In this document: one piece after another, positions 2,554-30,020 of the stretch
Layout: each line of letters opens with the position of its first letter
How positions within the stretch are numbered: the first letter of the stretch is position 1
Origin: a virus
Length of the DNA: 38,785 bases
IMG/VR virus record: IMGVR_UViG_3300032116_000552
Coordinates: 1-38,785 of that record
Reading direction: 5' to 3' (one strand)
Notes under the pieces: generated by a model
The model's database searches: none
Seen by the model: only the letters and a program-made list of their open reading frames with translations
Told to the model about the DNA's origin: nothing
Made by a program: the position numbers and the translations under genes

Positions 2554-3675
2554 CTAGGCTTTGGCGAAAGCACTGTCTAGACCACGGATGATAAAGGTTC
2601 CCGTGATTTTGAAAGGCTTGGGGGTCAAGCCTCTTATGACGATACCTTCTTGGGAGCCGACGGGACCGAGCTCGCTGTCAAGAGAGTTCAGCAGTGCTTC
2701 TCCCAACTTCATGGTTGCGAGATAGACAACGAAGCCATCAACGGCTGCCTTGACGTTCTGGGGCAGTGGTTCAGCTAGGTAAGAGGACACCGGTGTTCCA
2801 TTCATGATGTTCTGAAACACGTCCTTGCTTATGGCTTCGACTTTCTTTCCGGTTGATAGCTTCAGGGACATGTTCCTAGGAAGCATGCTCACACCTTGGA
2901 GCCATGCCTTTAGAGGTTTTGTCTCTTGTACGTCAGGAGAGATGTTTACGGTGTAGGACTTGTTTAGTTCTGCCTTGAAGTCTGGAAGCTTAGACTGCAT
3001 AGGAATAACGGCATGCAGAACCTTGAAGCCTTGCTTGTTTGCATATGGCTGTAGTTTCACCAGGAGCCTTTCTAGGGCATCCTTGTTGAAGGATGTCTCT
3101 GTGGCTGTTCTCTTGGTTGGACTGACCTGCATAATCTCCAGGAGCCCATGGATGGCAAGGAAGTTGTCCTGGTACTCTTGAACGTTCGTCTTGCCACCAG
3201 CAACATATTCCATGTTGAACATCACGTTGGGGTTGTTGAGCATTCCGAGTTCTTGTAGTTCTGGCTTTATGGCCGGTAGAGCAGAGTTGAAGATATCTAG
3301 AACCTTGCCTCCACGTTCTATCATGCCATGGCCAGGACCGAATCTGGATTCGAGGTCGGCCTTGGTTACTCCTCTTACGTCAAGTGGCTTGTTCGAACCT
3401 CTGTCAATAACGAACTGCTTGACACCATCAACTGTTGCGAGCCTTATGCTTGCGTTGATTCCGTCTATCTTGACGCTGGCGTGTGTTGGGTTCTTGGCGA
3501 GGTAGATGGCTGCTCTGCCAAACAGTTCGACCAAGTCTTTACCGGACTTGACCGATTCAACATCGAAGGGATGAGCCATGTGGCCAGCTGCACCACCTTC
3601 AGCTAGTTGTTGAAGGTGTTCTACCACAAGGACTCTGGTCAAGAGTCTTATGAGTTTGTGTGTTCTGTCATTCAT
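2554..3675 (-). CDS. DNA/RNA ligase-like nucleotidyltransferase
   Basis: A 373-residue protein with the signature of covalent nucleotidyltransferases (ligases and capping enzymes): motif I VKIDG (Lys69, Asp71, Gly72), a motif III-like FNMEYV (153-158, Glu156), motif IV EGIVI (343-347) and a motif V-like FKITG (355-359). Such enzymes form a lysyl-AMP intermediate and seal or cap nucleic acid ends. The early GHMAHPFD segment and this motif set recall the DUF6267-type proteins of T4-like cyanophages, though I cannot confirm the family. It is transcribed divergently from the nucleotidyltransferase gene, and its ATG lies only five bases from a late-promoter octamer in the shared palindrome. There is no Shine-Dalgarno site, so the mRNA is probably leaderless. 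The exact substrate is unknown. Confidence 0.65.
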   Translation of the reverse strand: MNDRTHKLIRLLTRVLVVEHLQQLAEGGAAGHMAHPFDVESVKSGKDLVELFGRAAIYLAKNPTHASVKIDGINASIRLATVDGVKQFVIDRGSNKPLDVRGVTKADLESRFGPGHGMIERGGKVLDIFNSALPAIKPELQELGMLNNPNVMFNMEYVAGGKTNVQEYQDNFLAIHGLLEIMQVSPTKRTATETSFNKDALERLLVKLQPYANKQGFKVLHAVIPMQSKLPDFKAELNKSYTVNISPDVQETKPLKAWLQGVSMLPRNMSLKLSTGKKVEAISKDVFQNIMNGTPVSSYLAEPLPQNVKAAVDGFVVYLATMKLGEALLNSLDSELGPVGSQEGIVIRGLTPKPFKITGTFIIRGLDSAFAKA

Positions 3676-3680
3676 GAGTG

Positions 3681-3697
3681 ATAACTAGGCTAGTTAT
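3681..3697. promoter_or_regulatory. Palindromic bidirectional late promoter
   Basis: ATAACTAG-g-CTAGTTAT is a perfect 17-base palindrome centred on 3689. Each arm reads CTAGTTAT towards one of the two divergent genes: five bases then ATG 3675 on the minus strand, four bases then ATG 3702 on the plus strand. The octamer is the one found before other late genes here. This is inferred to be two back-to-back late promoters. Confidence 0.65.
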
Positions 3698-3701
3698 GGC
3701 C

Positions 3702-4550
3702 ATGACTAAGTCTGCAGTGAAGAAGATTGGGCTGTTCCCTGGTTCGTTCAAGCCTATGCACATAGGACACTTTTTGAGTGTGTTGGCGGCGAAGGAATCC
3801 GTTGACAAGCTATATCTGTTTCTGTCTGAACAAGACAGAGTGCGTCCTGGGGAGTTTCCTCTCAGCGGCAAAGTAGCGAAGGAATACGTTCAGAAGTTCA
3901 TCCAGCCTGTGCTTGAGAGCAAGGGTGTCGAAGTGGTGTTTGTTCCTGGCTCTCCTGTTGGTACCACCTTCCAGTTTATCAAGGACAACATGGACAAGCC
4001 TGTGGACTTTTATCTGTTCGCTGGTCCCGAAGACATTGAAGGCAGGTACAGCCTGGACAAGCTTCAGAAGCTCTATCCAACACTTGCAGCAGAAAGCCGT
4101 ATTCACCCTGTAGCGCTGAAGGAAGTGCAGCTACCATCTGGCAAGCGCATCTCTGGAACCATGGTAAGACAAGCTCTTACGAACGGTGATGCGAAGCTGT
4201 TTGCTTCGCTGCTGCCTGATATTCCCGAGTTGAAGAAGGCCGCTTCAACCATCATGCAGTCGTTCGTCGCTGCTAGCAAGGAACTTACAGCGAAGGCAGA
4301 GAAGCCAAAAGCACCGAAGGTCAAGAAGTTGGCAGAAGTGGTTTCTCGGGTTCTGTTCGAGGAAGTGGGCAGGCTTGTTGTTGAAGGTAAGTTTCCTGCC
4401 AAGTGGGAGAAGGTTATTCTTGCACTCAAGGATGAGTACGGAGACCCAGCGAATGCGAAGACCCCGGAAGAGCGTCAACGCCTAGGAGCTCTGGTGTATG
4501 GAACGGTTCACAGACTCATGAAGCGTGGCAAGAAGAAGGCGAAGAAGTAG
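3702..4550 (+). CDS. HxGH-type nucleotidyltransferase (cytidylyl/adenylyltransferase-like)
   Basis: A 282-residue protein. Residues 8-23 carry KIGLFPGSFKPMHIGH, the HxGH signature of the nucleotidylyltransferase superfamily (NMN/pantetheine-phosphate adenylyltransferases, cytidylyltransferases). ISGTMVR at 150-156 matches the second signature, ISxTxxR. These enzymes transfer a nucleotide from an NTP to a phosphorylated or carboxylated acceptor. A Lys-rich linker near 194-210 leads to a C-terminal tail of about 70 residues with an EYG...LGALVYGTVHRLMK segment that is not part of the catalytic fold. The frame is open to GTG 3678, but ATG 3702 lies four bases after the late octamer; ATG 3696 is inside the octamer and GTG 3717 is a further alternative. 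It is paired divergently with the ligase-like gene. The natural substrate cannot be told from sequence. Confidence 0.75.
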   Translation: MTKSAVKKIGLFPGSFKPMHIGHFLSVLAAKESVDKLYLFLSEQDRVRPGEFPLSGKVAKEYVQKFIQPVLESKGVEVVFVPGSPVGTTFQFIKDNMDKPVDFYLFAGPEDIEGRYSLDKLQKLYPTLAAESRIHPVALKEVQLPSGKRISGTMVRQALTNGDAKLFASLLPDIPELKKAASTIMQSFVAASKELTAKAEKPKAPKVKKLAEVVSRVLFEEVGRLVVEGKFPAKWEKVILALKDEYGDPANAKTPEERQRLGALVYGTVHRLMKRGKKKAKK

Positions 4551-5890: not shown

Positions 5891-6856
5891 GTGATATTCA
5901 ACAGCAATGAACACGGTCACTTGGGTGGCATTTACCAAATCACCAACACGCATACGGGCAGAGTGTATATTGGGCAAACGAATCGGTTCAGAAACCGTTG
6001 GCAGAATCATTGTCGTGACCTTATGGGTGGTAACCATTCGAATCGATTCTTGCAGGCCGATTATAACAAATGTGTCACGCTCTTAGGACACGACAACTTC
6101 CTTCTGTTCTGCGTACTGGAGGTTATGGTTGGGGCGTCGAAAGAAGAAAGAAACGCCGCCGAAGAGCGACGTATCTCAAACGTATACCGACTTATCTTAG
6201 AGGATGGAACACGAGCATGCTACAACTGCACCGAAATAATCCGAGGAGAATGGCGGGCATGTCATTCGAAGACGCCAACGGAAACAAGTGCCAAGCAAAG
6301 CGAAGCCATGAAGAAAAAGTGGCAAGAACCCGGTTTCAAAGAGAAAGTGGCCATCAAACGAATGGCGGCCATGGATACGCCGGAATATAAGGCGAAAGCT
6401 TCTAAACATGCCAAACGGCTATGGGAAAGCGAAGAACATCGTGCAGCCATGTCCGTTCTAATGCAAGAACGAATGAAAGACCCTAACCAAAGGAAAGTTG
6501 CTATAGCGGCTCTCAGCGATCCAGCAAATCAGGCAAGGCGGACCAAAGCTATCAACGAAAGAATCGCATCAGACCCAGTGTTCAGGGCCAAAAAGCAAGA
6601 ACAGGCCCGAAAGAACATCGCCAACAGAAATAGCACGCAGCCGGTAAAGACATATGGCTCGCTGTTGGCGCCTGATGGCACGATATATCACAACATTTCA
6701 CATGTGCCAACGTTCGCCAAGGAACATGGGCTTTACAAGCAAGGGCTTTACGCCCTGCTTCATGGAAGGCTGAAAACCCACAAGGGCTGGAAGCTCCTTG
6801 TTGCTTCCGAAGAAGTGGGCCACGAATCATCCATAGTTATCATCACAGAAAGCTAG
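5891..6856 (+). CDS. GIY-YIG homing endonuclease inserted between neck genes
   Basis: A 321-residue protein with GIY at residues 13-15 and YIG at 26-28, a NRFRNRW catalytic-Arg segment, NHSNRF, EERRISN and CYNCTE, all in GIY-YIG order. The middle carries tandem basic NUMOD3-like repeats (SEAMKKKWQEPGF, SKHAKRLWESEEH), and the C-terminus a NUMOD1-like segment (VKTYGSLLAPDGTIYHNIS). The start is GTG; there is no earlier ATG in frame. The last eight codons contain the late octamer ATAGTTAT, so the reading frame runs through what looks like the native promoter of the next gene. The amber stop is in frame with the following gp14-like coding sequence, 9 bases before its proposed AUU start. A free-standing element is likely; its probable target is this neck-gene junction. 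Confidence 0.85.
   Translation: MIFNSNEHGHLGGIYQITNTHTGRVYIGQTNRFRNRWQNHCRDLMGGNHSNRFLQADYNKCVTLLGHDNFLLFCVLEVMVGASKEERNAAEERRISNVYRLILEDGTRACYNCTEIIRGEWRACHSKTPTETSAKQSEAMKKKWQEPGFKEKVAIKRMAAMDTPEYKAKASKHAKRLWESEEHRAAMSVLMQERMKDPNQRKVAIAALSDPANQARRTKAINERIASDPVFRAKKQEQARKNIANRNSTQPVKTYGSLLAPDGTIYHNISHVPTFAKEHGLYKQGLYALLHGRLKTHKGWKLLVASEEVGHESSIVIITES
6833..6840 (+). promoter_or_regulatory. Late octamer ATAGTTAT inside the end of the homing endonuclease
   Basis: Matches the late octamer at seven or eight positions and lies 25 bases before the proposed AUU start of the gp14-like gene. It probably belongs to that gene and was overrun when the homing endonuclease frame was inserted upstream. 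Confidence 0.5.
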
Positions 6857-15756: not shown

Positions 15757-16608
15757 ATGGAAACGATTTACAGTTGCCCAGAACCAGAGTGTCTCAAGTC
15801 TTTCTCTTCAATGGTTTCCCTCTCGGCTCACTATCGAAAGGGACATGGAAGGACATCCAAGCTGTTGTATATGGCGTTGCATACTGGTGGGGCACCAAAG
15901 TGCTGCGAGTGTGGCTGTGGAGAAGAGACGAAGTTTCTCGACATAACGAGAGGGTTTAGTAGCTATAAGGTTGGCCATAGTTCTCGTATTGTCAACAACT
16001 TCCAAACAGCGAAGTCTGTTGAGAACTCCCTGAATACCAGAAGAGCCATGATTGAAACGGGAGAATGGAAACCGTTTGTTTCTAACGACACGGGCCAACG
16101 CTGGTCGAAGGGAAAGACGAAAGAAACTGACGACCGAATCAAAAAGGCCGTAAAAGACATTTCACCCGAAGAAAAGTTGCGACGCTCTGAAACTATGAAA
16201 CGGGCCTGGAAGGAGGGACGCATAACGCCTCTTGTTGGTGCTCAACATCCTGGATGGAAGGGTGGCGTTTCTGGTCTCGTTACAAGTTGCCATGCGAACC
16301 GAAGACTTTACACGGAATGGAAGTATCCGTTGTTGGTTGCTGCCGGGTTCGCATGTTCTCATTGTGGGGTCAATAGAGGTCCATTCGAAGTTCATCATGA
16401 CAAGGAACGTATGGCTGCCATCGTTCATAAAATAGCCATGGCACATGGATGGAATGACTATTATGCTCTAGCACCCGCTGAAGAGTCCCACGAATTGAAG
16501 TCGACCATCGTTGAAGCTGTCGCATTCCATCACATAGCTAACAAGGTAAGTGGCCTTGTGTTGTGTGAAGGGTGCCACGAACAAGAGCATAACAAATACA
16601 ATTTCTAG
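15757..16608 (+). CDS. HNH homing endonuclease with N-terminal C2H2 zinc finger
   Basis: A 283-residue protein. Residues 7-30 form a C-x4-C-x12-H-x4-H zinc finger (Cys7, Cys12, His25, His30). A second Cys cluster CCECGCGEETKF follows at 49-60. The middle has a NUMOD3-like basic repeat (SPEEKLRRSETMKRAWKEG). The C-terminal HNH nuclease shows CSHCG (200-204), EVHHD (211-215) and LCEGCHEQEH (269-278). It cuts DNA near its own insertion site; placement after the tube gene suggests gp19 or its flank as target. ATG 15757 keeps the zinc finger; an overlapping ATG 15753 is in another frame. No clear promoter was found, although CATACT stands seven bases before the start. Confidence 0.85.
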   Translation: METIYSCPEPECLKSFSSMVSLSAHYRKGHGRTSKLLYMALHTGGAPKCCECGCGEETKFLDITRGFSSYKVGHSSRIVNNFQTAKSVENSLNTRRAMIETGEWKPFVSNDTGQRWSKGKTKETDDRIKKAVKDISPEEKLRRSETMKRAWKEGRITPLVGAQHPGWKGGVSGLVTSCHANRRLYTEWKYPLLVAAGFACSHCGVNRGPFEVHHDKERMAAIVHKIAMAHGWNDYYALAPAEESHELKSTIVEAVAFHHIANKVSGLVLCEGCHEQEHNKYNF

Positions 16609-16670: not shown

Positions 16671-16699
16671 TTGAATATCCCATCAATAACCGCTATAAT
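16671..16699 (+). promoter_or_regulatory. Early sigma-70-like promoter TTGAAT-N17-TATAAT
   Basis: A consensus -10 with a near-consensus -35 at ideal spacing. Seven bases separate TATAAT from ATG 16707, so the mRNA may begin at the start codon. This is the best early promoter on the plus strand. Confidence 0.7.
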
Positions 16700-16706
16700 G
16701 TTCTCT

Positions 16707-17102
16707 ATGAACAATGAAGCGCTGGAAGATGGGTCTATGGTGTGTGTCGCTAGCGATGAGTTGACTCCGGAAACGGAGCTCAACCCGTTTGACTGGCGTG
16801 GGTTTTCTCGTGTTGACTTGTGGAGACACAAGGTGGCAGCACTAGTTCAGAAAGCCAAGTGCTATCTGCTCGGGTATGGGCATCGATGGGAAGTGGTTGT
16901 CAGACCATGGAATCTGTCGAGGATTCAGTCCGTTGAGGACTACAGGAAGTACCGAGCAGGAAGACTTCGGTGTGTATGTTGTGGAGAGATGTACTTCGTC
17001 AAGGACGCTGACTTGACCGAACAAGAAGGTGTGCTGTACAAATTCAGAACGAACATCCTGTACAAGTATTACCCGAACTATAGTTCTAAGCAGAACAAGT
17101 AG
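16707..17102 (+). CDS. Unknown early protein with CxxC pair
   Basis: A 131-residue protein I do not recognise. It contains one CVCCG pair (near residue 97) that could be half of a zinc site, several Trp/Arg-rich segments (LWRHKVAALVQKAKCYL, GHRWEVVVRPW), and a basic Tyr-rich tail. The frame is open back to TTG 16671, but that codon is the -35 box of the promoter. ATG 16707 is seven bases after TATAAT and fits the leaderless pattern. ATG 16737 has a GGAAG site and is the alternative. It is the only gene in this late stretch with a strong sigma-70-like promoter, so it may be expressed early. Confidence 0.6.
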   Translation: MNNEALEDGSMVCVASDELTPETELNPFDWRGFSRVDLWRHKVAALVQKAKCYLLGYGHRWEVVVRPWNLSRIQSVEDYRKYRAGRLRCVCCGEMYFVKDADLTEQEGVLYKFRTNILYKYYPNYSSKQNK

Positions 17103-18841: not shown

Positions 18842-19135
18842 ATGAGCAGGACGAAGCGTTCAGCAGCCCAGGGCGAGTTGTTTGTTGTTGAGAATAAGCC
18901 TGGAATGGACGGCGTGGTTGTTGGACAGCTCTACAAGCTCTCCGATATATGGCAGCTATCTCATAGAACCATGGGAAAGCCGTTCCTTGTGCTGAGCATC
19001 GAGCGGGACTACAAGGTGTCGATGTTCAGAAGGGAATCACAAACGCATGTGTGTGCATGCACGATTCTGAACGTTGAAGGCGCTGTGGTAACGATTCTGT
19101 GCTGTCCTGGCGATCTTGTGCCTGTTGAGACGTAG
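18842..19135 (+). CDS. Small PGxLYR-family-like protein
   Basis: A 97-residue beta-rich protein. It shares a layout with many small proteins of the early cluster: a V-x-GQLYKL strand near residue 27, a hydrophobic PFLVLSIE strand, a D/N-x-EG turn near residue 83 (ILNVEGAVVTILCC), and a C-terminal V-x-T ending. I infer an SH3-like or small-barrel fold of unknown function. It is probably leaderless, since ATG is five bases from a late octamer. The 19146 gene downstream is a second member, so the family occurs in both early and late units. Confidence 0.55.
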   Translation: MSRTKRSAAQGELFVVENKPGMDGVVVGQLYKLSDIWQLSHRTMGKPFLVLSIERDYKVSMFRRESQTHVCACTILNVEGAVVTILCCPGDLVPVET

Positions 19136-19145
19136 GAGAAGGTAT

Positions 19146-19529
19146 ATGTCCTTGAGTGTGCATCGACACTTGATACCGGGAGTCCTCTACAGAGTCATGT
19201 ACGTGGGTCAACCGAAACATGTGTGTGAAGGGGCTAGATGCACGATTCCAGGATGTTTCGGTTGGCCTCTTCACAAGCAGATATACGTAAGCAAGACGCT
19301 TGGTGACGATATCGATGACCTGGGCTTTACCCTTGATGATGGTTCCTGCCTTGTGTTCTTGTCGGCTGAGAGCTTGGTAAGGACATACGTCGGACACTGG
19401 TCCATGGACCTTGAAGACATAGACGCTTGCTATGAAAGAGAGACCGTCGTATACTTCAGGTTCTTGTACCAGGACACGTTCATCTACATCCGAGAAACAG
19501 AAAGTTGTGAATATGTACGTATCCAGTAG
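19146..19529 (+). CDS. PGxLYR-family protein
   Basis: A 127-residue protein. LIPGVLYRVMYVG near the N-terminus matches the family motif of the early cluster (PGKLYRYVG in the gene ending at 27437). Later segments KQIYVSK, DDGSCLVFLSAE and a Tyr/Phe-rich strand block follow. The open frame starts at 19116, but ATG 19146 has a GGAGAAGG site just upstream and fits the motif position. It lies 10 bases behind the 18842 gene and overlaps the 39-residue membrane protein gene at its end. Function unknown. Confidence 0.6.
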   Translation: MSLSVHRHLIPGVLYRVMYVGQPKHVCEGARCTIPGCFGWPLHKQIYVSKTLGDDIDDLGFTLDDGSCLVFLSAESLVRTYVGHWSMDLEDIDACYERETVVYFRFLYQDTFIYIRETESCEYVRIQ

Positions 19530-23695: not shown

Positions 23696-23974
23696 TCAGT
23701 CACCAACAGTGTAGACTTGCTTGTATCGAACGTGTCTTGGAGGCTCCGCTCCAACCGTAACGTCATGAACCTCTGTGTCGTTGACCCAGCACTTCGTGCC
23801 GAACAGCTTGAAGTACGCCGAACCGTCAGGAGCACGCATCGACTTGCTGATCCTCACCAGCGCGCCTTGCTCAAACCGAGCATCCAACGCCTCAGAGTTC
23901 ACTGCCTTACTCAACACCGCTGAGCCAATGACAACCTCCGCTGGCTTCTGTGCCCGTCTCGCTCTCTTCATCAT
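23696..23974 (-). CDS. Unknown small early protein
   Basis: A 92-residue basic-start protein (MMKRARRAQKPAEV). The middle, FEQGALVRISKSMRAPDGSAYFKLFG, has an SH3-like strand pattern similar to that of neighbouring small proteins. ATG 23974 stands six bases after the -10 TAGAGT of a TTGATA-N17 promoter, so the mRNA is probably leaderless; the second ATG is the next codon. No ribosome binding site is visible. It begins its own transcription unit at the left end of the early cluster. Confidence 0.65.
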   Translation of the reverse strand: MMKRARRAQKPAEVVIGSAVLSKAVNSEALDARFEQGALVRISKSMRAPDGSAYFKLFGTKCWVNDTEVHDVTVGAEPPRHVRYKQVYTVGD

Positions 23975-23980
23975 GTTTCT

Positions 23981-24009
23981 ACTCTATCAGAACCCTTGTG
24001 CAATATCAA
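23981..24009 (-). promoter_or_regulatory. Early promoter TTGATA-N17-TAGAGT
   Basis: On the minus strand: -35 at 24009-24004, 17-base spacer, -10 at 23986-23981, then six bases to ATG 23974. Typical of the set. Confidence 0.6.
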
Positions 24010-24036
24010 AGGGTTTATCGTTTTCTTGACCGTTAT

Positions 24037-24597
24037 TCAGCACTCGAACGTATACGTGCGAACCGCAACAACGTTCATAAGCTCGTCGGAAGTGAACGTA
24101 CGCTCGAAAGAGCCGTACTTGAACGAATCCGCCTTGAAGGTAGCCATCCAATGCACAAGACGGCCCGAATATTCGATCTTTCTCACAGAAACCACGTCGG
24201 CAGAGTGAACGTCATCCGTATACGGGCTCGAAACCTCCACACGATCGCCAGCCTTCAGCTCGGAAACATGCCGCCTCTCCTGAACGGGAATGTGTGGGTT
24301 GCAAAGCTCCAGAAGCTCAACCAAATCGTCGTTGTGCTTGCCACCGAAGACAGCCGAAAGCCGGAAGCTAAATCCCTGGGTGCAATATGCCTGAAGTGCC
24401 GGTCTGCACTGCACCGCAGTGATACACACACCAGCAGCGACCAACGCCGCATCCTTCACAGCGGAAGGCTCAATGCCATCAAGAACAGCCTGAAGTCGTG
24501 CAAGCTCAGCGCTGTAGTTGGCAACGCTCCAGTTCGAGGGCACGAAGAACGACTTGACAAGGTTCTTCTGCCCGTCAGTAAAAGTGCTGAGATCCAT
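24037..24597 (-). CDS. Unknown early protein
   Basis: A 186-residue protein. The first half is helical (TFTDGQKNLVKSFFV, YSAELARLQAVLDGI, DAALVAAGVCIT) with three Cys; the second half is beta-rich (ELKAGDRVEVSSPYTDD, VSVRKIEYSGRLVHW, VVAVRTYTFEC) and suggests a small barrel. I do not recognise it. AAGGA lies five bases upstream of the ATG. A TTGCAA-N17-CATAAT promoter is 26 bases upstream, so this is one of the few early leaders with a normal ribosome binding site. Confidence 0.65.
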   Translation of the reverse strand: MDLSTFTDGQKNLVKSFFVPSNWSVANYSAELARLQAVLDGIEPSAVKDAALVAAGVCITAVQCRPALQAYCTQGFSFRLSAVFGGKHNDDLVELLELCNPHIPVQERRHVSELKAGDRVEVSSPYTDDVHSADVVSVRKIEYSGRLVHWMATFKADSFKYGSFERTFTSDELMNVVAVRTYTFEC

Positions 24598-24623
24598 ATT
24601 CCTTCGTCTCTCTTTCTATAACC

Positions 24624-24652
24624 ATTATGCCAGTTGAGGGTCGTTATTGCAA
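24624..24652 (-). promoter_or_regulatory. Early promoter TTGCAA-N17-CATAAT
   Basis: Minus strand: -35 at 24652-24647, -10 at 24629-24624. Directly upstream is AGAATAATCG, shared with the promoter at 28455 and nearly with that at 25608, perhaps an UP-like or activator site. Confidence 0.65.
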
Positions 24653-24683
24653 CGATTATTCTACTTGGGAATTCTCAGGGGTT

Positions 24684-25031
24684 TCACGTCAGGTGAACCA
24701 CCGAGTGTTGGCGTTCTCTTGCCGCCCAGGACTTTTCCCATTCCGAGCGGCTCAAGTTCCCGATGTTCAAAGCAAGGCTTCCATCGATGCCACCCGGAAG
24801 CCGAACCAGCAGTTTTCTTCCCTCCACATCAAGGCACTCCAGCCAGAAACCACCGTAATGCATGTCAGCAAACGCATCGACAAGAAGCAGGGTGTAACCG
24901 TGCTCAATCTGCACGGTGGTTGCAGTTCCAACGGTAGAAACCACAAACGCTTTCAGTTTCATTCCTTGTGCCGGTTGGATAAGCGACCCAGCCGGAATAT
25001 GGAACGATGGCTTGTCTTCTTCATCACTCAT
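24684..25031 (-). CDS. PGxL-family small early protein
   Basis: A 115-residue protein. After an acidic start comes FHIPAGSLIQPAQ, the family motif ([PV]-x-G-[ST]-L), then a hydrophobic strand HGYTLLLVDAF, and a later DVEGRKLLVRLPGG turn at the place where relatives have x-DG. It is co-transcribed with the 25338 gene (13 bases apart). The C-terminus is basic. The fold is inferred to be small and beta-rich; no function is known. Confidence 0.6.
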   Translation of the reverse strand: MSDEEDKPSFHIPAGSLIQPAQGMKLKAFVVSTVGTATTVQIEHGYTLLLVDAFADMHYGGFWLECLDVEGRKLLVRLPGGIDGSLALNIGNLSRSEWEKSWAARERQHSVVHLT

Positions 25032-25044
25032 GGCATACTGCTTT

Positions 25045-25338
25045 CTAGCTCACCAGCTCAAAAGCCTGTGCCAACCACGCAGCTGGTAGCTCGGTGCATT
25101 CGACCGTGACAAACTTGCCGTTGAAAAGAAGAAGATCGATGCACACCAACTGGCCATTGTCGTTCCTGTACACAGCCAGCAGAAGGAATGGCTCACGGCA
25201 TACTATCGCTCGATTGTAGATGGTAACCCACGCTCGTGCCCCAATCAGGAGATAGTTTTCATCGCCGCCAGAGCTGTCATGTGCATACAGGGTGTTGGAC
25301 CCTGCAACCCTGAGAAGACTACCAACGGGATGTTTCAT
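25045..25338 (-). CDS. PGxL-family small early protein
   Basis: A 97-residue protein beginning MKHPVGSLLRVAG, the family motif at the very N-terminus. A hydrophobic strand EPFLLLAVYRNDNGQL and the LLLFNGKFVTVEC segment follow at the family positions; the end AFELVS resembles the ERFELVSG end of the 26001 gene. It starts 13 bases after the 25567 gene stop; no clear ribosome binding site is seen, so coupling is possible. Function unknown. Confidence 0.6.
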   Translation of the reverse strand: MKHPVGSLLRVAGSNTLYAHDSSGGDENYLLIGARAWVTIYNRAIVCREPFLLLAVYRNDNGQLVCIDLLLFNGKFVTVECTELPAAWLAQAFELVS

Positions 25339-25351
25339 GGGCTATGCCGAG

Positions 25352-25567
25352 TCAGTCCCAGAACCAAGAATCTTCGCCGTGCTGGACCTTGGTGGGGAAC
25401 ACCACGCCATCGAAGTTGCTGAAGTCCTTCCGAACCTCCAGCATCGCTTCACGCTCAACACGACGGAAGGTTCGACGAGCGAGCCCCTTGAAGAAAGGGG
25501 CAACCGGAAAGTATCCGGCCTTGAGCTCGGTGGGAGCCTTGAACTCTCGCTGGTGATTCGTCTTCAT
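25352..25567 (-). CDS. Unknown small basic early protein
   Basis: A 71-residue, basic, aromatic-rich protein (FKAPTELKAGYFPVAPFFKGLARRTFRRVEREAM). No family motif is visible. ATG 25567 lies 12 bases after the -10 of a TTGAAA-N17-TATATT promoter, giving a leader of about six bases. It is the first gene of a unit that continues into the 25338 and 25031 genes. A small basic host-takeover protein is possible but not shown. Confidence 0.6.
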   Translation of the reverse strand: MKTNHQREFKAPTELKAGYFPVAPFFKGLARRTFRRVEREAMLEVRKDFSNFDGVVFPTKVQHGEDSWFWD

Positions 25568-25579
25568 CTCTATGTACCT

Positions 25580-25608
25580 AATATACCATCCCCAAGACGT
25601 TATTTCAA
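25580..25608 (-). promoter_or_regulatory. Early promoter TTGAAA-N17-TATATT
   Basis: Minus strand: -35 at 25608-25603, -10 at 25585-25580. Preceded by AAGATAATCG, similar to the upstream element of two other early promoters. Confidence 0.65.
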
Positions 25609-25647
25609 CGATTATCTTATCAGCGTTTTTGCATGGTTTTATCTACA

Positions 25648-26001
25648 TCACCCGGAAACCAGCTCGAATCGCTCACGAGCGAACGTGTACATGATGGCGA
25701 CTTCTTCGGTTCCGAAGCTTCTGGGAGCCCATGGTACCCACAGCACAACACCGGTTGTCAACAGAACACGAAAGCCATACCCGCCACCATAGTGCCCTGG
25801 AGACAGCTCTTCGCTGATTTTCTCCCATTCGCTCAACAACATCATGGTAGCGCTCTCTTGGCGGTCAAAACCAATGCGATGCAGCGCCGTCCTTTCCCCG
25901 TTACACTTCAGGTATTCAAGGTAGTATGCAACCTTCGTGGACAAGATAGAGCCAACGGGCCAGGGAAGACACAGCATTCCTGGAGGAATATTACCGCTCA
26001 T
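25648..26001 (-). CDS. PGxL-family-like small early protein
   Basis: A 117-residue protein. LPWPVGSILSTKVAYYLEYL carries a family-type motif; an ATMMLLSEWEKI strand and a GFRVLLTTGVVLW segment follow at expected positions, and it ends with RERFELVSG, close to the end of the 25338 gene product. ATG overlaps the stop of the upstream gene (ATGA, 25998-26001), so it is translationally coupled. It is a more diverged member. Function unknown. Confidence 0.6.
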   Translation of the reverse strand: MSGNIPPGMLCLPWPVGSILSTKVAYYLEYLKCNGERTALHRIGFDRQESATMMLLSEWEKISEELSPGHYGGGYGFRVLLTTGVVLWVPWAPRSFGTEEVAIMYTFARERFELVSG

Positions 26002-26303
26002 CGCTCTACATCTCCAGCTCGTGAACTATGAAGAATAGTCTCTTTCCAGTGTTCTCGTGTCGGACAGAGAGCGTACTGGTTTCCATCCGGACCAAGAAGT
26101 TTTTCCCAGCCAAAGCAATTGACACCGTGATATGGTCCCAGGCTCAGAAACACCCAGTCCGAATGCGCATGCAGGTAAACGGGCATGCCACCGCCTAGGC
26201 CACCACTGATATGGTAGAGACGGCATTGGTCCGATGGGTTGAGACGCTGTGCTGGAGGCTCCAAAGGCCCTATGAACTCGTAAAGTCTTCCTGGAATGAA
26301 CAT
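25998..26303 (-). CDS. PGxLYR-family small early protein
   Basis: A 101-residue protein beginning MFIPGRLYEFIG, then WVFLSLGPYHGV and GWEKLLGPDGNQYAL. These three blocks line up well with the 27164 and 27697 gene products (PGKLYRY, VFLSLGYHG, GWERVMAPDG). It therefore belongs to the core of the family. The start is one base after the stop of the upstream gene. The order of strands and turns suggests a small SH3-like barrel; no catalytic residues are apparent. Confidence 0.65.
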   Translation of the reverse strand: MFIPGRLYEFIGPLEPPAQRLNPSDQCRLYHISGGLGGGMPVYLHAHSDWVFLSLGPYHGVNCFGWEKLLGPDGNQYALCPTREHWKETILHSSRAGDVER

Positions 26304-26304
26304 G

Positions 26305-26589
26305 TTAGAGCTTCGCCTTCTCGAATTTCAACCACCAGTTCTTTTGTGACCGGTCATGCACAACCTGTTTCTTCAGGCCATCCGGACCCAACAATATCAC
26401 ACGGTATTCGTAGAAACTCCTCCACTCAACGCCTAGGAACACGTAACAGCTGAGCAGCGACAATGACTCCCAACCCCAACCATCATCTGCTACAACGGAA
26501 GTAATATATGCCTTCGGGCGCAACAGCGTTCCTACTGGAAACGGCGGTGTTGGGGGCGTGTCTTCCCCCGCTACCCGGTATGCAGTCAT
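26305..26589 (-). CDS. PGxL-family small early protein
   Basis: A 94-residue protein. PPFPVGTLLRPKAYI, SCYVFLGVEW and YRVILLGPDGLKKQVV reproduce the three family blocks (PxGxLxR, hydrophobic FLG strand, L-x-PDG turn), followed by a basic, Trp-rich end (NWWLKFEKAKL). It starts three bases after the upstream stop and ends one base before the next start, so the genes form a tight operon. Function unknown. Confidence 0.65.
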   Translation of the reverse strand: MTAYRVAGEDTPPTPPFPVGTLLRPKAYITSVVADDGWGWESLSLLSCYVFLGVEWRSFYEYRVILLGPDGLKKQVVHDRSQKNWWLKFEKAKL

Positions 26590-26592
26590 ACG

Positions 26593-26904
26593 TCAGAACC
26601 CAACTTTCTTGGGACAATATGTGCTTGTGCATTCTTCCTGCACGATTCCGTTGAGCTCCCGTTCTTTTGCCATATCCATATGGACCACAAGAGCCAAGCT
26701 ATCTGCCCAGTGTTCGTTGTTGTCCGTGTTCGGGTCATACTCCTCCCCGCAAGCCACACACCGAACCAAGTGCTTGTGAAAGCAAGCGAACTGTACGTCT
26801 CTATGGCCGAACACGCTGCACTTCAGCTTGACCCAACGATTCTTCCATGAAGTGTTGGCCGTGCTCTTGTCTTCGACAGGCTTCTGAATCTCACGGTAAC
26901 TCAT
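26593..26904 (-). CDS. Small zinc-binding protein candidate (DUF1660-like)
   Basis: A 103-residue protein. KLKCSVFGHRDVQF...HLVRCVACGEEY has the C-x3-GH...C-x2-C pattern I associate with DUF1660-type phage zinc-ribbon proteins, probably one zinc site. A later CTSTYCPKK near the C-terminus gives two more Cys. ATG 26904 overlaps the upstream stop (ATGA). A similar K-x-K-C-FFGFHLW...C-x2-C protein is encoded at 28672-29121, so the cluster has two of this type among the PGxLYR proteins. Confidence 0.6.
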   Translation of the reverse strand: MSYREIQKPVEDKSTANTSWKNRWVKLKCSVFGHRDVQFACFHKHLVRCVACGEEYDPNTDNNEHWADSLALVVHMDMAKERELNGIVQEECTSTYCPKKVGF

Positions 26905-27164
26905 GATTCTACCTCAACCCAAAACCGTTCAACATTCCTTACGAACGTGTAGTATGCAAGACCATCGGAAGCCAAAACCACTTCCCAGCCGGTCTCTGTG
27001 GTACGGTATCCTTGATTATGGTGTCCCAAGTGCAGGACCACGTTGTCAGTGTCACCGACATTCTTGATCAATGAGCCACCATAGCCGTAAGTGCTGCAAG
27101 AATACATCGTAACCATGCCTGCAGCTGCACATCCGATGTATCGGTATAGTTTTCCTGGAGTCAT
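26901..27164 (-). CDS. PGxLYR-family small early protein
   Basis: An 87-residue protein and the closest relative of the 27697 gene product: MTPGKLYRYIG versus MKPGKLYRYVG, VVLHLGHHN versus VFLSLGYHG, GWEVVLASDG versus GWERVMAPDG, and a shared WxEVES end. Such even similarity over the full length points to tandem duplication within the cluster. It starts six bases after the upstream stop. Function unknown; probable small beta barrel. Confidence 0.7.
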   Translation of the reverse strand: MTPGKLYRYIGCAAAGMVTMYSCSTYGYGGSLIKNVGDTDNVVLHLGHHNQGYRTTETGWEVVLASDGLAYYTFVRNVERFWVEVES

Positions 27165-27170
27165 CGTGTG

Positions 27171-27440
27171 CTAGCTTTCTACGACAGAGATATATCTCGG
27201 GAGTTTCTCAACGTGAATACGCACGCCCGCTTCGACTAGTTCTCTTGTGAGAAGGACAAAGATAACATGACCTTTGTCCGGGTCGAAACGAGAACGATGC
27301 ACCATGAACAGCGCACCAATATCGGCCTCTGTGCTACCGGAAGCGGTGACGATTATGAATGGCAGCTGTGCCCGAAGAAGTGTTCCTGGTGTAAGGAATG
27401 GTTTGACTGCCTCCGGTAGTTCGAACTTCACGATCTTCAC
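27171..27440 (-). CDS. PGxL-family small early protein, GTG start
   Basis: An 89-residue protein. FLTPGTLLRAQLPFIIV carries the motif, HVIFVLLTREL the middle strand, and the product ends VVES like its neighbours. The open frame goes up to ATG 27497, which would overlap the upstream gene by 60 bases. GTG 27440 instead forms a GTGA overlap with the upstream stop and has AGAGGT six bases before it. The second half diverges from the family and lacks the DG turn. Function unknown. Confidence 0.65.
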   Translation of the reverse strand: MKIVKFELPEAVKPFLTPGTLLRAQLPFIIVTASGSTEADIGALFMVHRSRFDPDKGHVIFVLLTRELVEAGVRIHVEKLPRYISVVES

Positions 27441-27697
27441 GATTCTACCTCTTCCCAGTATATCCCGTTCTTTCTCAGATAGAGAAAGTGTATGCAACCG
27501 TCAGGAGCCATGACCCGTTCCCAACCCGAATTGGGGATGTCACCATGGTATCCCAAGGATAGGAACACGTCAGCATCGCTATCAACTTGGCGGATTGTGG
27601 CACCGAGCTCGCCGTCAGGACGATACGTGTAGAGAAAGGCTGTGCCTGCTTTCTCGAAGCCCACGTATCGATATAGCTTTCCGGGTTTCATGAGCAT
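27437..27697 (-). CDS. PGxLYR-family small early protein (best motif match)
   Basis: An 86-residue protein that serves as the reference for the family: KPGKLYRYVG at residues 4-13, DVFLSLGYHG in the middle, GWERVMAPDG about two thirds along, WEEVES at the end. ATG 27697 follows a GAAGG/TAGG region; ATG 27691 is an alternative. It is tightly packed with its neighbours on both sides. Function unknown. Confidence 0.7.
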   Translation of the reverse strand: MLMKPGKLYRYVGFEKAGTAFLYTYRPDGELGATIRQVDSDADVFLSLGYHGDIPNSGWERVMAPDGCIHFLYLRKNGIYWEEVES

Positions 27698-27701
27698 GTT
27701 C

Positions 27702-28013
27702 TTAGCCTACCTTCTCGAAGAGATCCGAGGCTGGCACAGGAGTGTCTGTGTGTTCCATAGCATGAAAGTTGAACGTATGCAACACGACGTATATCGTTTC
27801 TCCGTCCGATGCAATCAACTCGATGCAGGGCACTCCTGCCTGATATGCTGGATGACCAGGGTCTGCTATGTAGATGCCGACAACGAAGTATACGCAGATA
27901 TCGCCCGGATACATGTAAGCGTGGTGAACAACGCCTATGATGTCCTTGGTGTCATATGGAAAGGTTGCCTTGGCTCTCACAAGGTCTCCGGGCTTCACAG
28001 CGTCGTCGTTCAT
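27702..28013 (-). CDS. PGxL-family small early protein
   Basis: A 103-residue protein: AVKPGDLVRAKATF at the N-terminus, CVYFVVGIYI in the middle, and CIELIASDGETIYVVL at the DG position. This matches the family order. The frame extends to TTG 28034 inside the upstream gene end; ATG 28013, fourteen bases after the upstream stop, is the simpler start, though no strong ribosome binding site is seen. Function unknown. Confidence 0.65.
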   Translation of the reverse strand: MNDDAVKPGDLVRAKATFPYDTKDIIGVVHHAYMYPGDICVYFVVGIYIADPGHPAYQAGVPCIELIASDGETIYVVLHTFNFHAMEHTDTPVPASDLFEKVG

Positions 28014-28027
28014 TGTGCTATCTAGAC

Positions 28028-28420
28028 TCAGCAATCCGCATAGTGGTTCACCATCTCTCGGTGAGCATCCATCCAGCGGAAAATGTCTTTCCTGGTCATG
28101 ACCATAGGAACGTTCGAGAGCTCGCCGCCCTTGGTTGCATCCTTGATACGAGCCCGCAAGTCAACCACTTCGTCGCCGTCGAAGAATCCCGACACAACGA
28201 TCTTGGTTCCGGTCTTCGGGGAAGTGATGGAAGGTTCGTCGTACATTCCGTAGAACCCCTCACAAACGCCAAAGGTTCCAGGGGTAATCGTGTAGTTCAC
28301 GATGACGGTATGAACACGCTCTTCTGCAGCGTCAGCGTTGGGATTGAAACCATCGCCGTGCTCCCCAGCAAGAACCGGAGACACATCAGCAGCCTTGTTG
28401 CTGTTCCCGTCGTTCATCAT
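28028..28420 (-). CDS. Unknown early protein, probably leaderless
   Basis: A 130-residue acidic-start protein (MMNDGNSNKAADVSP). It has a beta-rich middle (HTVIVNYTITPGTFGVCEGFYG, TKIVVSGFFDGDEVVDL) and a helical end. I do not recognise it. ATG 28420 lies six bases after TAAGAT of a TTGATA-N17 promoter, so the transcript should start on the start codon. It heads the longest small-protein operon of the window, running through to 25648. Confidence 0.65.
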   Translation of the reverse strand: MMNDGNSNKAADVSPVLAGEHGDGFNPNADAAEERVHTVIVNYTITPGTFGVCEGFYGMYDEPSITSPKTGTKIVVSGFFDGDEVVDLRARIKDATKGGELSNVPMVMTRKDIFRWMDAHREMVNHYADC

Positions 28421-28426
28421 GTATAC

Positions 28427-28455
28427 ATCTTACCAGTTGGGGGAACGAATATCAA
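28427..28455 (-). promoter_or_regulatory. Early promoter TTGATA-N17-TAAGAT
   Basis: Minus strand: -35 at 28455-28450, -10 at 28432-28427, then six bases to ATG 28420. AGAATAATCG stands directly before the -35, identical to the promoter at 24652. Confidence 0.7.
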
Positions 28456-28491
28456 CGATTATTCTACGTGGAAATTCCCAGGTTCAAAACA

Positions 28492-28659
28492 TCAGAGCAG
28501 GATAAGAACCTCCTGGTTTTCGTCGACAACCAGTTCCGAAACCTCCCGAACACGGTCGCAGTAATGGCCGTAACACTCCGGCTGCAACGTAACAGCTTCT
28601 TGCTGCAACTGTTCGTCAGTGAGCTTGTTCAACATATCTCGCAACTCTCGTAGTGTCAC
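28492..28659 (-). CDS. Small unknown protein (55 aa), GTG start
   Basis: A short gene below usual length cut-offs. GTG 28659 has AGGAGG five bases upstream, and the product reads MTLRELRDMLNKLTDEQLQQ, then ECYGHYCDRVREVSEL, ending QEVLILL. The L-R-E-L...L-T-D-E-Q-L start resembles small acidic T4-like phage proteins that begin with a helix of this type and end in a V-L-I-L strand. It follows the 29121 gene, 12 bases after its stop, and fills an otherwise unexplained 230-base gap. Function unknown. Confidence 0.6.
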   Translation of the reverse strand: MTLRELRDMLNKLTDEQLQQEAVTLQPECYGHYCDRVREVSELVVDENQEVLILL

Positions 28660-28671
28660 ATGTACCTCCTA

Positions 28672-29121
28672 TCACGCTGGGATGCGATGTTCGTCCCCGC
28701 CTGCGCAGGGCATTGGGTGATCCAGTGCATGAGACGGATGGAGCCATTCCCACGTCCAACCGGACGGGAATCCCACACGTTTGTGTGCGACCAACGTATC
28801 CCAGAACCAGTAGTTGATGCCGTTTTCGAAACACTCCCATTCACAGGAGGTTGCCTTTATCAGCAGAGACACCGACACATCTTTTGTTGTCTTCGTGTTG
28901 ACTCGACTGTGGCAGTGTCGACACTCGAAAACCCACTCATGAAAAACAACGACCTTCAGTCCCGAAACGTGTCTGTACAAGCGGTCATCGAGTGTTGGCC
29001 CCCACAAGTGGAAACCAAAAAAGCACTTGAGCTTGTCGCTCAGCGTTGTGATTCGAACTGGCTTGACGGGCTCGGTGTACGTTGCCTGCCGGTAGTGCTG
29101 CAGCTCGTTTCCCTTGCTCAT
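28672..29121 (-). CDS. Zinc-binding protein candidate (DUF1660-like)
   Basis: A 149-residue protein. KLKCFFGFHLWGP near residue 31 and VFECRHCHSR near 65 give a C-x3-F-H...C-x2-C zinc-ribbon pattern, like that of the 26904 gene product. A Trp-rich C-terminus (NYWFWD, GWTWEWLHP) follows. ATG 29121 lies six bases after TAGGAT of a CTTGACT-N17 promoter; no ribosome binding site is present, so the mRNA is probably leaderless. Function unknown. Confidence 0.6.
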   Translation of the reverse strand: MSKGNELQHYRQATYTEPVKPVRITTLSDKLKCFFGFHLWGPTLDDRLYRHVSGLKVVVFHEWVFECRHCHSRVNTKTTKDVSVSLLIKATSCEWECFENGINYWFWDTLVAHKRVGFPSGWTWEWLHPSHALDHPMPCAGGDEHRIPA

Positions 29122-29127
29122 GTATGC

Positions 29128-29156
29128 ATCCTATCAGGTGATAGGACAGAAGTCAA
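29128..29156 (-). promoter_or_regulatory. Early promoter TTGACT-N17-TAGGAT
   Basis: Minus strand: -35 at 29156-29151 (with preceding C, as CTTGAC), -10 at 29133-29128, six bases to ATG 29121. Closest of the set to the alphaproteobacterial consensus. Confidence 0.7.
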
Positions 29157-29170
29157 GGGATTTATTCTTT

Positions 29171-29488
29171 TCAGTCAACTCGTGTATTCCACGACCAGCC
29201 CAGATAAGGGCTTAGGTCATCGGAAATATACTCTGAACGCCAGTAGTCTTCTGTATCGACCCACGATTTTTTCATCAGGTCGAAAGACCTTGGAATTTCC
29301 CTTTCGTATTCCTTTCCAAGCGAAATAAGCTCGGAAATCAGCTCGTTGGTTACCGTTGGGTATTTCTCTTCGAGCTTCTCGATTTCGTCGAGAAAGTTCC
29401 AAAAGTAGTTCATTGTGGCTAGGTGCCCAACACGGAACCAAATACGTTCACTGCCGTTTTCGAAATCAACGTAAACGTCTGATGACAT
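29171..29488 (-). CDS. Unknown early acidic protein
   Basis: A 105-residue protein starting MSSDVYVDFENGSERIWFRV, followed by acidic helices (FWNFLDEIEKLEEKYPTV, ELISLGKEYEREIP) and a Tyr/Trp-rich tail. The frame is open to 29584, but ATG 29488 has AAGGGA seven bases upstream and lies just after the upstream gene stop. I do not recognise it. It is co-transcribed with the 29969 gene. Confidence 0.6.
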   Translation of the reverse strand: MSSDVYVDFENGSERIWFRVGHLATMNYFWNFLDEIEKLEEKYPTVTNELISELISLGKEYEREIPRSFDLMKKSWVDTEDYWRSEYISDDLSPYLGWSWNTRVD

Positions 29489-29498
29489 ATATTTCCCT

Positions 29499-29969
29499 TT
29501 AGGTTGGAAACGCTTGCTTGAGCTTGTACCAGTGATTCTTCCGACGAACCGACGAATCGTAGTCAGGGTGAAGAACCTCAACATTCACGCTCTCGCTGTA
29601 GTACCCGTTCGAGGAACCGAGCCATCGAACGTCGACCGTTCCCTTGTTCGTTCTGAACGTGTAGAACGTCCAGGTGTAGGAGTCATCATGATACTTAGGC
29701 TCAGCAGGCTCGGGAACATTTGTTCGCTCCTCTGCAACAACGATAGGAACGCCAACAAGGTCGTTCAAGTCTCCACAGACATCATCGATGGTGACGCTCT
29801 CGCAGCAGTCTTGCTCATGATAGAACAGGACTTGAAAACCATCCTCTGCCGTGAAGACTAGCCTGTCCGCATCTGCCTTCACAGACACGAAAACACAGCC
29901 TCCCATAAGCTCCTGAAGGTTGGATGCGTCGTGAACTTGCTCGATTGTTTTTTGTCTTGCGTAGTACAT
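29499..29969 (-). CDS. Early protein with HEQDCCESV motif (DUF7448-like)
   Basis: A 156-residue protein. FYHEQDCCESVTIDDVCGDL followed by NDLVGVPIVVAEE matches a pattern I know from widespread phage and bacterial proteins of unknown function (DUF7448-type: H-x-Q-DCCE-x-V-x-I-x-D-I-x-GDL-x-DL). The His, Asp and Cys pair suggest a metal site or an active site. The C-terminal half is Tyr/Trp-rich beta structure. The open frame reaches 30005, but those bases are the -35 box; ATG 29969 lies seven bases after the -10, so the mRNA is probably leaderless. Confidence 0.65.
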   Translation of the reverse strand: MYYARQKTIEQVHDASNLQELMGGCVFVSVKADADRLVFTAEDGFQVLFYHEQDCCESVTIDDVCGDLNDLVGVPIVVAEERTNVPEPAEPKYHDDSYTWTFYTFRTNKGTVDVRWLGSSNGYYSESVNVEVLHPDYDSSVRRKNHWYKLKQAFPT

Positions 29970-29976
29970 GGTCGCT

Positions 29977-30005
29977 ACCTTATCAGGGCACTCTGGAAGA
30001 GTCAA
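29977..30005 (-). promoter_or_regulatory. Early promoter TTGACT-N17-TAAGGT
   Basis: Minus strand: -35 at 30005-30000 (CTTGACT), -10 at 29982-29977, seven bases to ATG 29969. It fixes the start of the DUF7448-like gene. Confidence 0.7.
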
Positions 30006-30020
30006 GGGATAAAACGTGCG

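Follow-up and report, generated by a model that had tools for sequence, protein, structure and literature searches.

In bacteria, SH3 domains are mostly found inside larger proteins, as cell-wall or extracellular modules, and one loop that determines SH3 specificity is the RT loop. Large paralogue families are, to our knowledge, unusual in phages, homing endonucleases apart. A phage precedent for an early protein with a predicted SH3-like domain acting on the host nucleoid is T4 MotB. This protein binds DNA, is predicted to have a KOW (SH3-like) domain at its N terminus and copurifies with H-NS, and its early gene lies in a non-essential region (PMC7827196). Here we describe an expanded family of small, predicted all-beta proteins encoded mainly in a minus-strand gene islet of the 38.8-kb IMG/VR fragment IMGVR_UViG_3300032116_000552, the whole of which we refer to as the window. 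The family follows the strand pattern of the bacterial SH3 families SH3_3 (PF08239) and SH3_4 (PF06347), 'vvlLe..yyKvLt.dGkiGWi', but it scores below the curated cut-off, its proteins stand alone, and its relatives in other phages carry a long insert at the RT-loop position. The model of one such relative has the fold of eukaryotic SH3 domains (HCK, Pex13/Pas20, EPS8), although the family lacks significant sequence similarity to them and no proline-rich ligand pocket was identified. A conserved scaffold with one hypervariable site also recalls the targets of diversity-generating retroelements, whereas the variation in the relatives is a GC-rich in-frame insert and not adenine-directed point change. 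Neither the literature nor Pfam, PHROG or PADLOC yielded an entry describing the family. The fold is known; the scale of the expansion and the hypervariable insert are new. With a probability of about 50%, we read the window proteins as early binders of host targets built on a divergent SH3 scaffold.

The window starts inside a T4-type major head protein gene (phrog_138, E 8e-51) and includes tail sheath and tail tube genes; identity of the head protein to annotated phages is 48% at most. The source is a T4-like phage. Since the IMG/VR contigs with a relative of the tail tube include some of 260 kb (G007), 119 kb (G005) and 309 kb (G012), it is probably jumbo-sized. Three islet proteins form the homologous core of the family (open reading frames, ORFs, are named below by their first coordinate, and all those in the islet lie on the minus strand). 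ORF 27437 (27437-27697, 86 aa; MLMKPGKLYRYVGF...VFLSLG...GWERVMAPDG...WEEVES) and its nearest paralogue 26901 (26901-27164, 87 aa) align end to end with 39% identity (BLASTP E 9e-19), as a first-pass annotation of this DNA had said of two close paralogues. The third, 25998 (25998-26303, 101 aa), is linked to 27437 and 26901 by BLASTP (E 3e-5 and 4e-3, respectively) and by phmmer (3.5e-7). By sequence comparison, the homology of the three is secure. A profile built without any window sequence placed 27437 first (E 1.4e-5) and 26901 second (E 0.002) among window ORFs, and profile-profile alignment (hhalign) of the trio with the short members of G007 gave a probability of 93.7% over the whole domain.

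A survey of related phages, proposed in the first-pass annotation, revealed far larger expansions. In G007, profile searches recovered about 40 members, located near 50, 107 and 110-131 kb; in the 123-kb contig G024 they recovered 29. No structural protein of the window is matched anywhere in the 123 kb of G024, so the family extends beyond the close relatives of the window. G021 holds five members in an array that runs to the contig end, and members were also found in G015 and G016. In G015, a pentapeptide-repeat protein encoded in the same islet has one family member as its C-terminal domain (L084:15439-16056). The distant relative G012 gave no family match at E≤1, searches of viral contigs found no close relatives of 26901 or of the core alignment, and annotated phages contained no meaningful relatives of 27437, of one G007 copy or of one G021 copy. 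Bacterial genomes gave a single weak match, which was not used; it lies at the end of a contig assigned to a Halieaceae bin.

The AlphaFold model of 27437, based on the family alignment, is all-beta with seven strands (pLDDT 84.3, pTM 0.74), which agrees with the earlier description of an expanded family of small beta-rich barrels. For the model of a G007 member, SH3 domains make up most of the top 50 matches in the Protein Data Bank (PDB), mostly with probabilities of 0.9-0.99, though no E-value is below 0.05. A profile search of the PDB gave the Pas20/Pex13 SH3 domain as best match (E 0.15). When Pfam SH3_3 was run over whole records, all 12 hits were family members, eight in G007 and four in G024 (E 0.002-0.12). 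Pfam and PHROG searches with the islet members gave no convincing match. Taken together, the models, their structural matches and the restriction of SH3_3 hits to family members make a divergent SH3-like fold likely for the family as a whole and probable for the window members.

In a subfamily from G007 and G021 (MQLGKMYLVKEWFWFLYPTKELA...), each copy has its own version of a 13-27-residue segment located between the first strands. This insert has 73% GC compared with 35% in the rest of the gene and is rich in Ala, Arg and Gly. Within G007, identity is 20% in the insert and 60% in the scaffold. The inserts differ in length and all are in frame. They occur in tandem arrays (L037/L097, G007 110-131 kb; L034, G007 49-54 kb; L094, G021 47-48.6 kb), and similar inserts were seen in G024 at about 41-42 kb. 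In the G007 member model the insert forms a helical arm at the RT-loop position, where confidence is lower. The most variable stretch of the window members, as judged by eye, lies at the same place. The scaffold is under purifying, not positive, selection, with dN/dS of 0.14-0.78 and below 1 in every close pair examined. As the insert codons are of two types, G-ending and C-ending, a triplet-repeat origin of the insert is suggested. A retroelement was rejected as the source of variation, since no RVT_1 reverse transcriptase was found in G007, G024, G021 or the window, four contigs that may all be incomplete. One bolder reading, which we regard as doubtful, holds that these genomes carry 30-40 copies each of one SH3 scaffold, many with a distinct GC-rich helical loop insert, diversified by a non-retroelement process into antibody-like binders, and that the window represents a smaller, insert-free branch.

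The window members lie in a variable islet (23975-30020) between the conserved flanks 23696-23974 and 30021-30425/30517-31386; the minus-strand genes of this region number 18 and span about 24.0-30.4 kb. Both flanks were recovered in G003, G005, G007, G009 and G015 and nearly all of the genes in between were not found there, one exception being 29499, which has a match in G007. The block is therefore a site of turnover. In place of the window's genes, the islets of most relatives hold small ORFs and an adenylosuccinate-synthetase-like gene. The latter keeps its GDEGKGK motif in G003, G007, G009 and G015 and is not present in the window. Two genes of the G015 islet contain the family domain. 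No similarity was found between the islet DNA and annotated phages.

The islet genes are arranged in operons with junctions of -4 to +14 bases, and host-type promoters are predicted in front of them. Five of the six strong sigma70-like extended -10 promoters in the window are on the minus strand at 24.0-29.2 kb, within the islet. TTGATA-17-TAAGAT at 28427-28455 heads the genes from 28028 down to 25648, TTGAAA-17-TATATT at 25580-25608 those from 25352 down to 24684, and TTGCAA-17-CATAAT at 24624-24652 the gene 24037. The second of these carries a shared element, TAATCGTTGAAATAACG (0.08 expected by chance), found with one mismatch at the third, and an upstream sequence of the AATCGTTGA type is common to three promoters heading separate operons. 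T4-type late promoters were not detected, which is weak evidence, as a divergent phage may use another motif. Since the host-type promoters cluster in the islet and the T4-type late promoter is absent, expression of the islet early in infection is likely.

These observations are consistent with the following picture. Each copy would be a single-domain binding module in which the conserved strands GxLYR, F-L-x-L-G and vLxxDG and the C-terminal ExVE form the barrel. The RT-loop region between block 1 (the GxLYR strand) and the F-L-x-L-G strand, variable in length and sequence, would set the target, presumably a host protein of takeover or defence. The islet members would be expressed from the host-type sigma70 promoters, with the early phase of infection as the most likely time. 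Duplication and later divergence of the loop would give a repertoire; an arms race with the host, as proposed in the first-pass annotation, is a reasonable inference rather than a result. Dozens of copies per genome of one small scaffold would supply candidate host-binding or counter-defence proteins, and the family would provide a model, open to experiment, for how one fold can be turned into a set of phage binding proteins. Several results speak against this picture. PADLOC models gave no convincing match, only one to a Cas3HD model (E 0.003) and one further match (E 0.02), each in a single member. The GC-rich insert was not found in the window members. The alignment behind the 27437 model included distant relatives and may pull the model towards one fold, and this model matches the PDB weakly in Foldseek searches (best FCHSD2 SH3 domains, E 0.43, probability 0.57). 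The SH3_3 gathering cut-off of 27 bits is reached by no member, the best score being 16.8 bits in the relatives, with none in the window. Finally, not all members need be early, because one of them, 19146, lies among late genes.

Of the alternatives, the one that fares best, though it is rather unlikely, takes the proteins to be nucleic-acid-binding KOW/SH3-like modulators comparable to T4 MotB: early and DNA-binding, disturbing host nucleoid proteins instead of each having one protein partner. Besides the MotB precedent itself (PMC7827196), it draws on the fold comparison of 27437 with a viral library, where T4 MotB.1 ranked first (P39415, taken as MotB.1 from its 119-aa length and place; probability 1.00, E 0.03); fourth place went to a phage Sf25 protein of the MotB type (probability 0.99). 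Like MotB and MotB.1, the family is small with a predicted SH3-like fold. However, the fold E-values are non-significant, the members lack the additional OB-fold domain of MotB, and the hypervariable insert of the relatives fits protein binding better than nonspecific DNA binding. Profile comparison with MotB.1 showed no relation (hhalign probability 0.1%), and on this ground MotB was rejected as the family to which these proteins belong. T4 MotB can thus serve as an analogy only, with no sign of kinship.

An unlikely explanation is that most copies are dispensable passengers, produced by recombination-driven tandem duplication where the islet tolerates it, each copy having little function under selection. 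The purifying selection on the scaffold in every close pair examined is difficult to reconcile with this, as are the in-frame inserts of different length, the tight operon spacing and the retention of open frames by about 70 copies on two contigs. In its favor are the fast turnover of the islet, matches at the extreme ends of contigs G021 and G022, and the promoters of G007, which were duplicated along with the genes.

How far the family extends within the window was addressed with motif and profile tests. The first block, defined as P.?G.[LI][YLVI][RKEQ] and compared with shuffles and with other window ORFs, occurs in eight of the 18 islet ORFs (24684, 25045, 25998, 26305, 26901, 27171, 27437 and 27702); a slightly looser form also takes in 25648. 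Shuffled sequences gave a mean of 0.06 and a maximum of 2, and other window ORFs 2 in 271. The strict pattern of three blocks in order was found in five (25045, 25998, 26305, 26901 and 27437; shuffle mean 0.00, maximum 1). At least eight tandem genes had been claimed to share all three blocks; the number stands for the first block but falls to five for the complete set. Note that some circularity is built into this test, as the pattern had been derived from the sequences tested. BLASTP and phmmer detected no pair among the claimed members beyond 26901, 27437 and 25998. Pairwise BLAST was therefore dropped as too weak a membership test, and held-out profiles were used instead. One alignment of all claimed members was poor and was not used either. 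In the held-out test the profile lacked the tested protein, whose score was then compared with those of 1000 shuffles and of other phage ORFs (p-values below in that order), and the test was repeated with enlarged leave-one-out profiles. Correction for about 11 such tests leaves 26305 borderline and makes 25045 and 18842 non-significant.

By these tests 25648 (25648-26001, 117 aa; PVGSIL...) is a supported member (p=0.001/0.003) and the third window ORF for the non-window profile. Likewise supported is 27702 (27702-28013, about 103 aa from the ATG at 28013; KPGDLVRA...LIASDG), with p=0.002/0.003 and 0.002-0.004 across both profile rounds. Support for 26305 (26305-26589, 94 aa; PVGTLLR...YVFLG...LLGPDG), which has all three blocks, is borderline (0.002/0.003; 0.007/0.007 with enlarged profiles). 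Also with all three blocks, 25045 (25045-25338, 97 aa; PVGSLLR...FLLLA...LFNGK) is marginal (0.008/0.009, up to 0.01; 0.002 with all rows). Two further claimed members are possible by the first block only and did not pass the profile test: 24684 (24684-25031; PAGSLIQ), with p=0.46/0.52, and 27171 (27171-27440; TPGTLLR...VVES), with p=0.27/0.38, each reaching 0.08 at best. The latter most likely starts at the GTG at 27440, overlapping 27437 by four bases, and not at the TTG at 27497. Overall, the family is real as judged from sequence, but for some of the claimed proteins membership is not proven.

A strict view would restrict the family to 25998, 26901 and 27437 and ascribe the motif in the weak members, otherwise unrelated, to chance or convergence. 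The missing pairwise BLAST signal for the others fits this, as does the failure of 24684, 27171 and 28028 in profile tests. We nevertheless consider it quite improbable: the first block is far more frequent in the islet than the 0.06 expected, 25648, 27702 and 19146 pass the held-out tests, and the non-window profile places even the secure member 25998 only fifteenth among window ORFs. Since a secure member ranks so low, weak profile scores do not exclude membership.

Two plus-strand members had been proposed in the late region, of which one is supported. ORF 19146 (19146-19529, 127 aa; LIPGVLYRV...LVFLS...YFRFLYQD) gave p=0.001/0.003 and sits in the interval from the tail-tube gene to 20447. 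In G005, G003 and G015 this neighbourhood also contains family genes of that type, and G016 and L010 have similar ones. ORF 19146 is apparently an older member whose position has been conserved. The other, 18842 (18842-19135; VGQLYKLSD...FLVLS...NVEG), is marginal, with p=0.022/0.021 and 0.06/0.04 with enlarged profiles, and ranks fourth among window ORFs when the non-window profile is enlarged (E 0.05). Lastly, it is very unlikely that the proteins serve, like parts of endolysins or tail proteins, as SH3b modules that bind the cell wall or as components of the virion. The SH3_3-like pattern and the position of 19146 and some relative arrays near late genes would suit such a role, but the proteins are single domains lacking a lysin domain, the islet carries host-type promoters of its own, and it would be unusual for a part of a lysin or virion to come in several dozen different copies.

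Other islet genes are not assigned to the family. The first gene of the longest operon, 28028-28420, shows only a TPGTF motif and no profile match, and its membership is not supported. The gene heading the second operon, 25352-25567, is a non-member (profile p=0.25) with a homologue in the otherwise unrelated contig G024 (tblastn 35%, E 1.6e-5). The Cys-rich (CxxC) gene 26593-26904 lies in the operon of the core members and is not one of them (held-out p=0.32/0.09). It is weakly similar to the protein of 16671-17102 (phmmer E 0.03), and a similar CxxC stretch is seen in three small proteins, 16671-17102, 26593-26904 and 28672-29121 (RCVCCGE / RCVACGE / ECRHCHS), which possibly form a second small paralogous family.

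Elsewhere in the window, inspection by eye showed two GIY-YIG-like genes among the structural genes (820-2457 and 5891-6856), which several relatives match, and a probable HNH-type gene with Cys motifs (15757-16608) adjoining the tail tube. In G007, a gene conserved in relatives is broken by an intein-like stretch (L042/L043, 214825-216135; by eye). An RNA-ligase-like gene (2554-3675, minus strand) adjoins a nicotinamide-nucleotide-adenylyltransferase-like gene (3678-4550, plus strand), both again recognized by eye.

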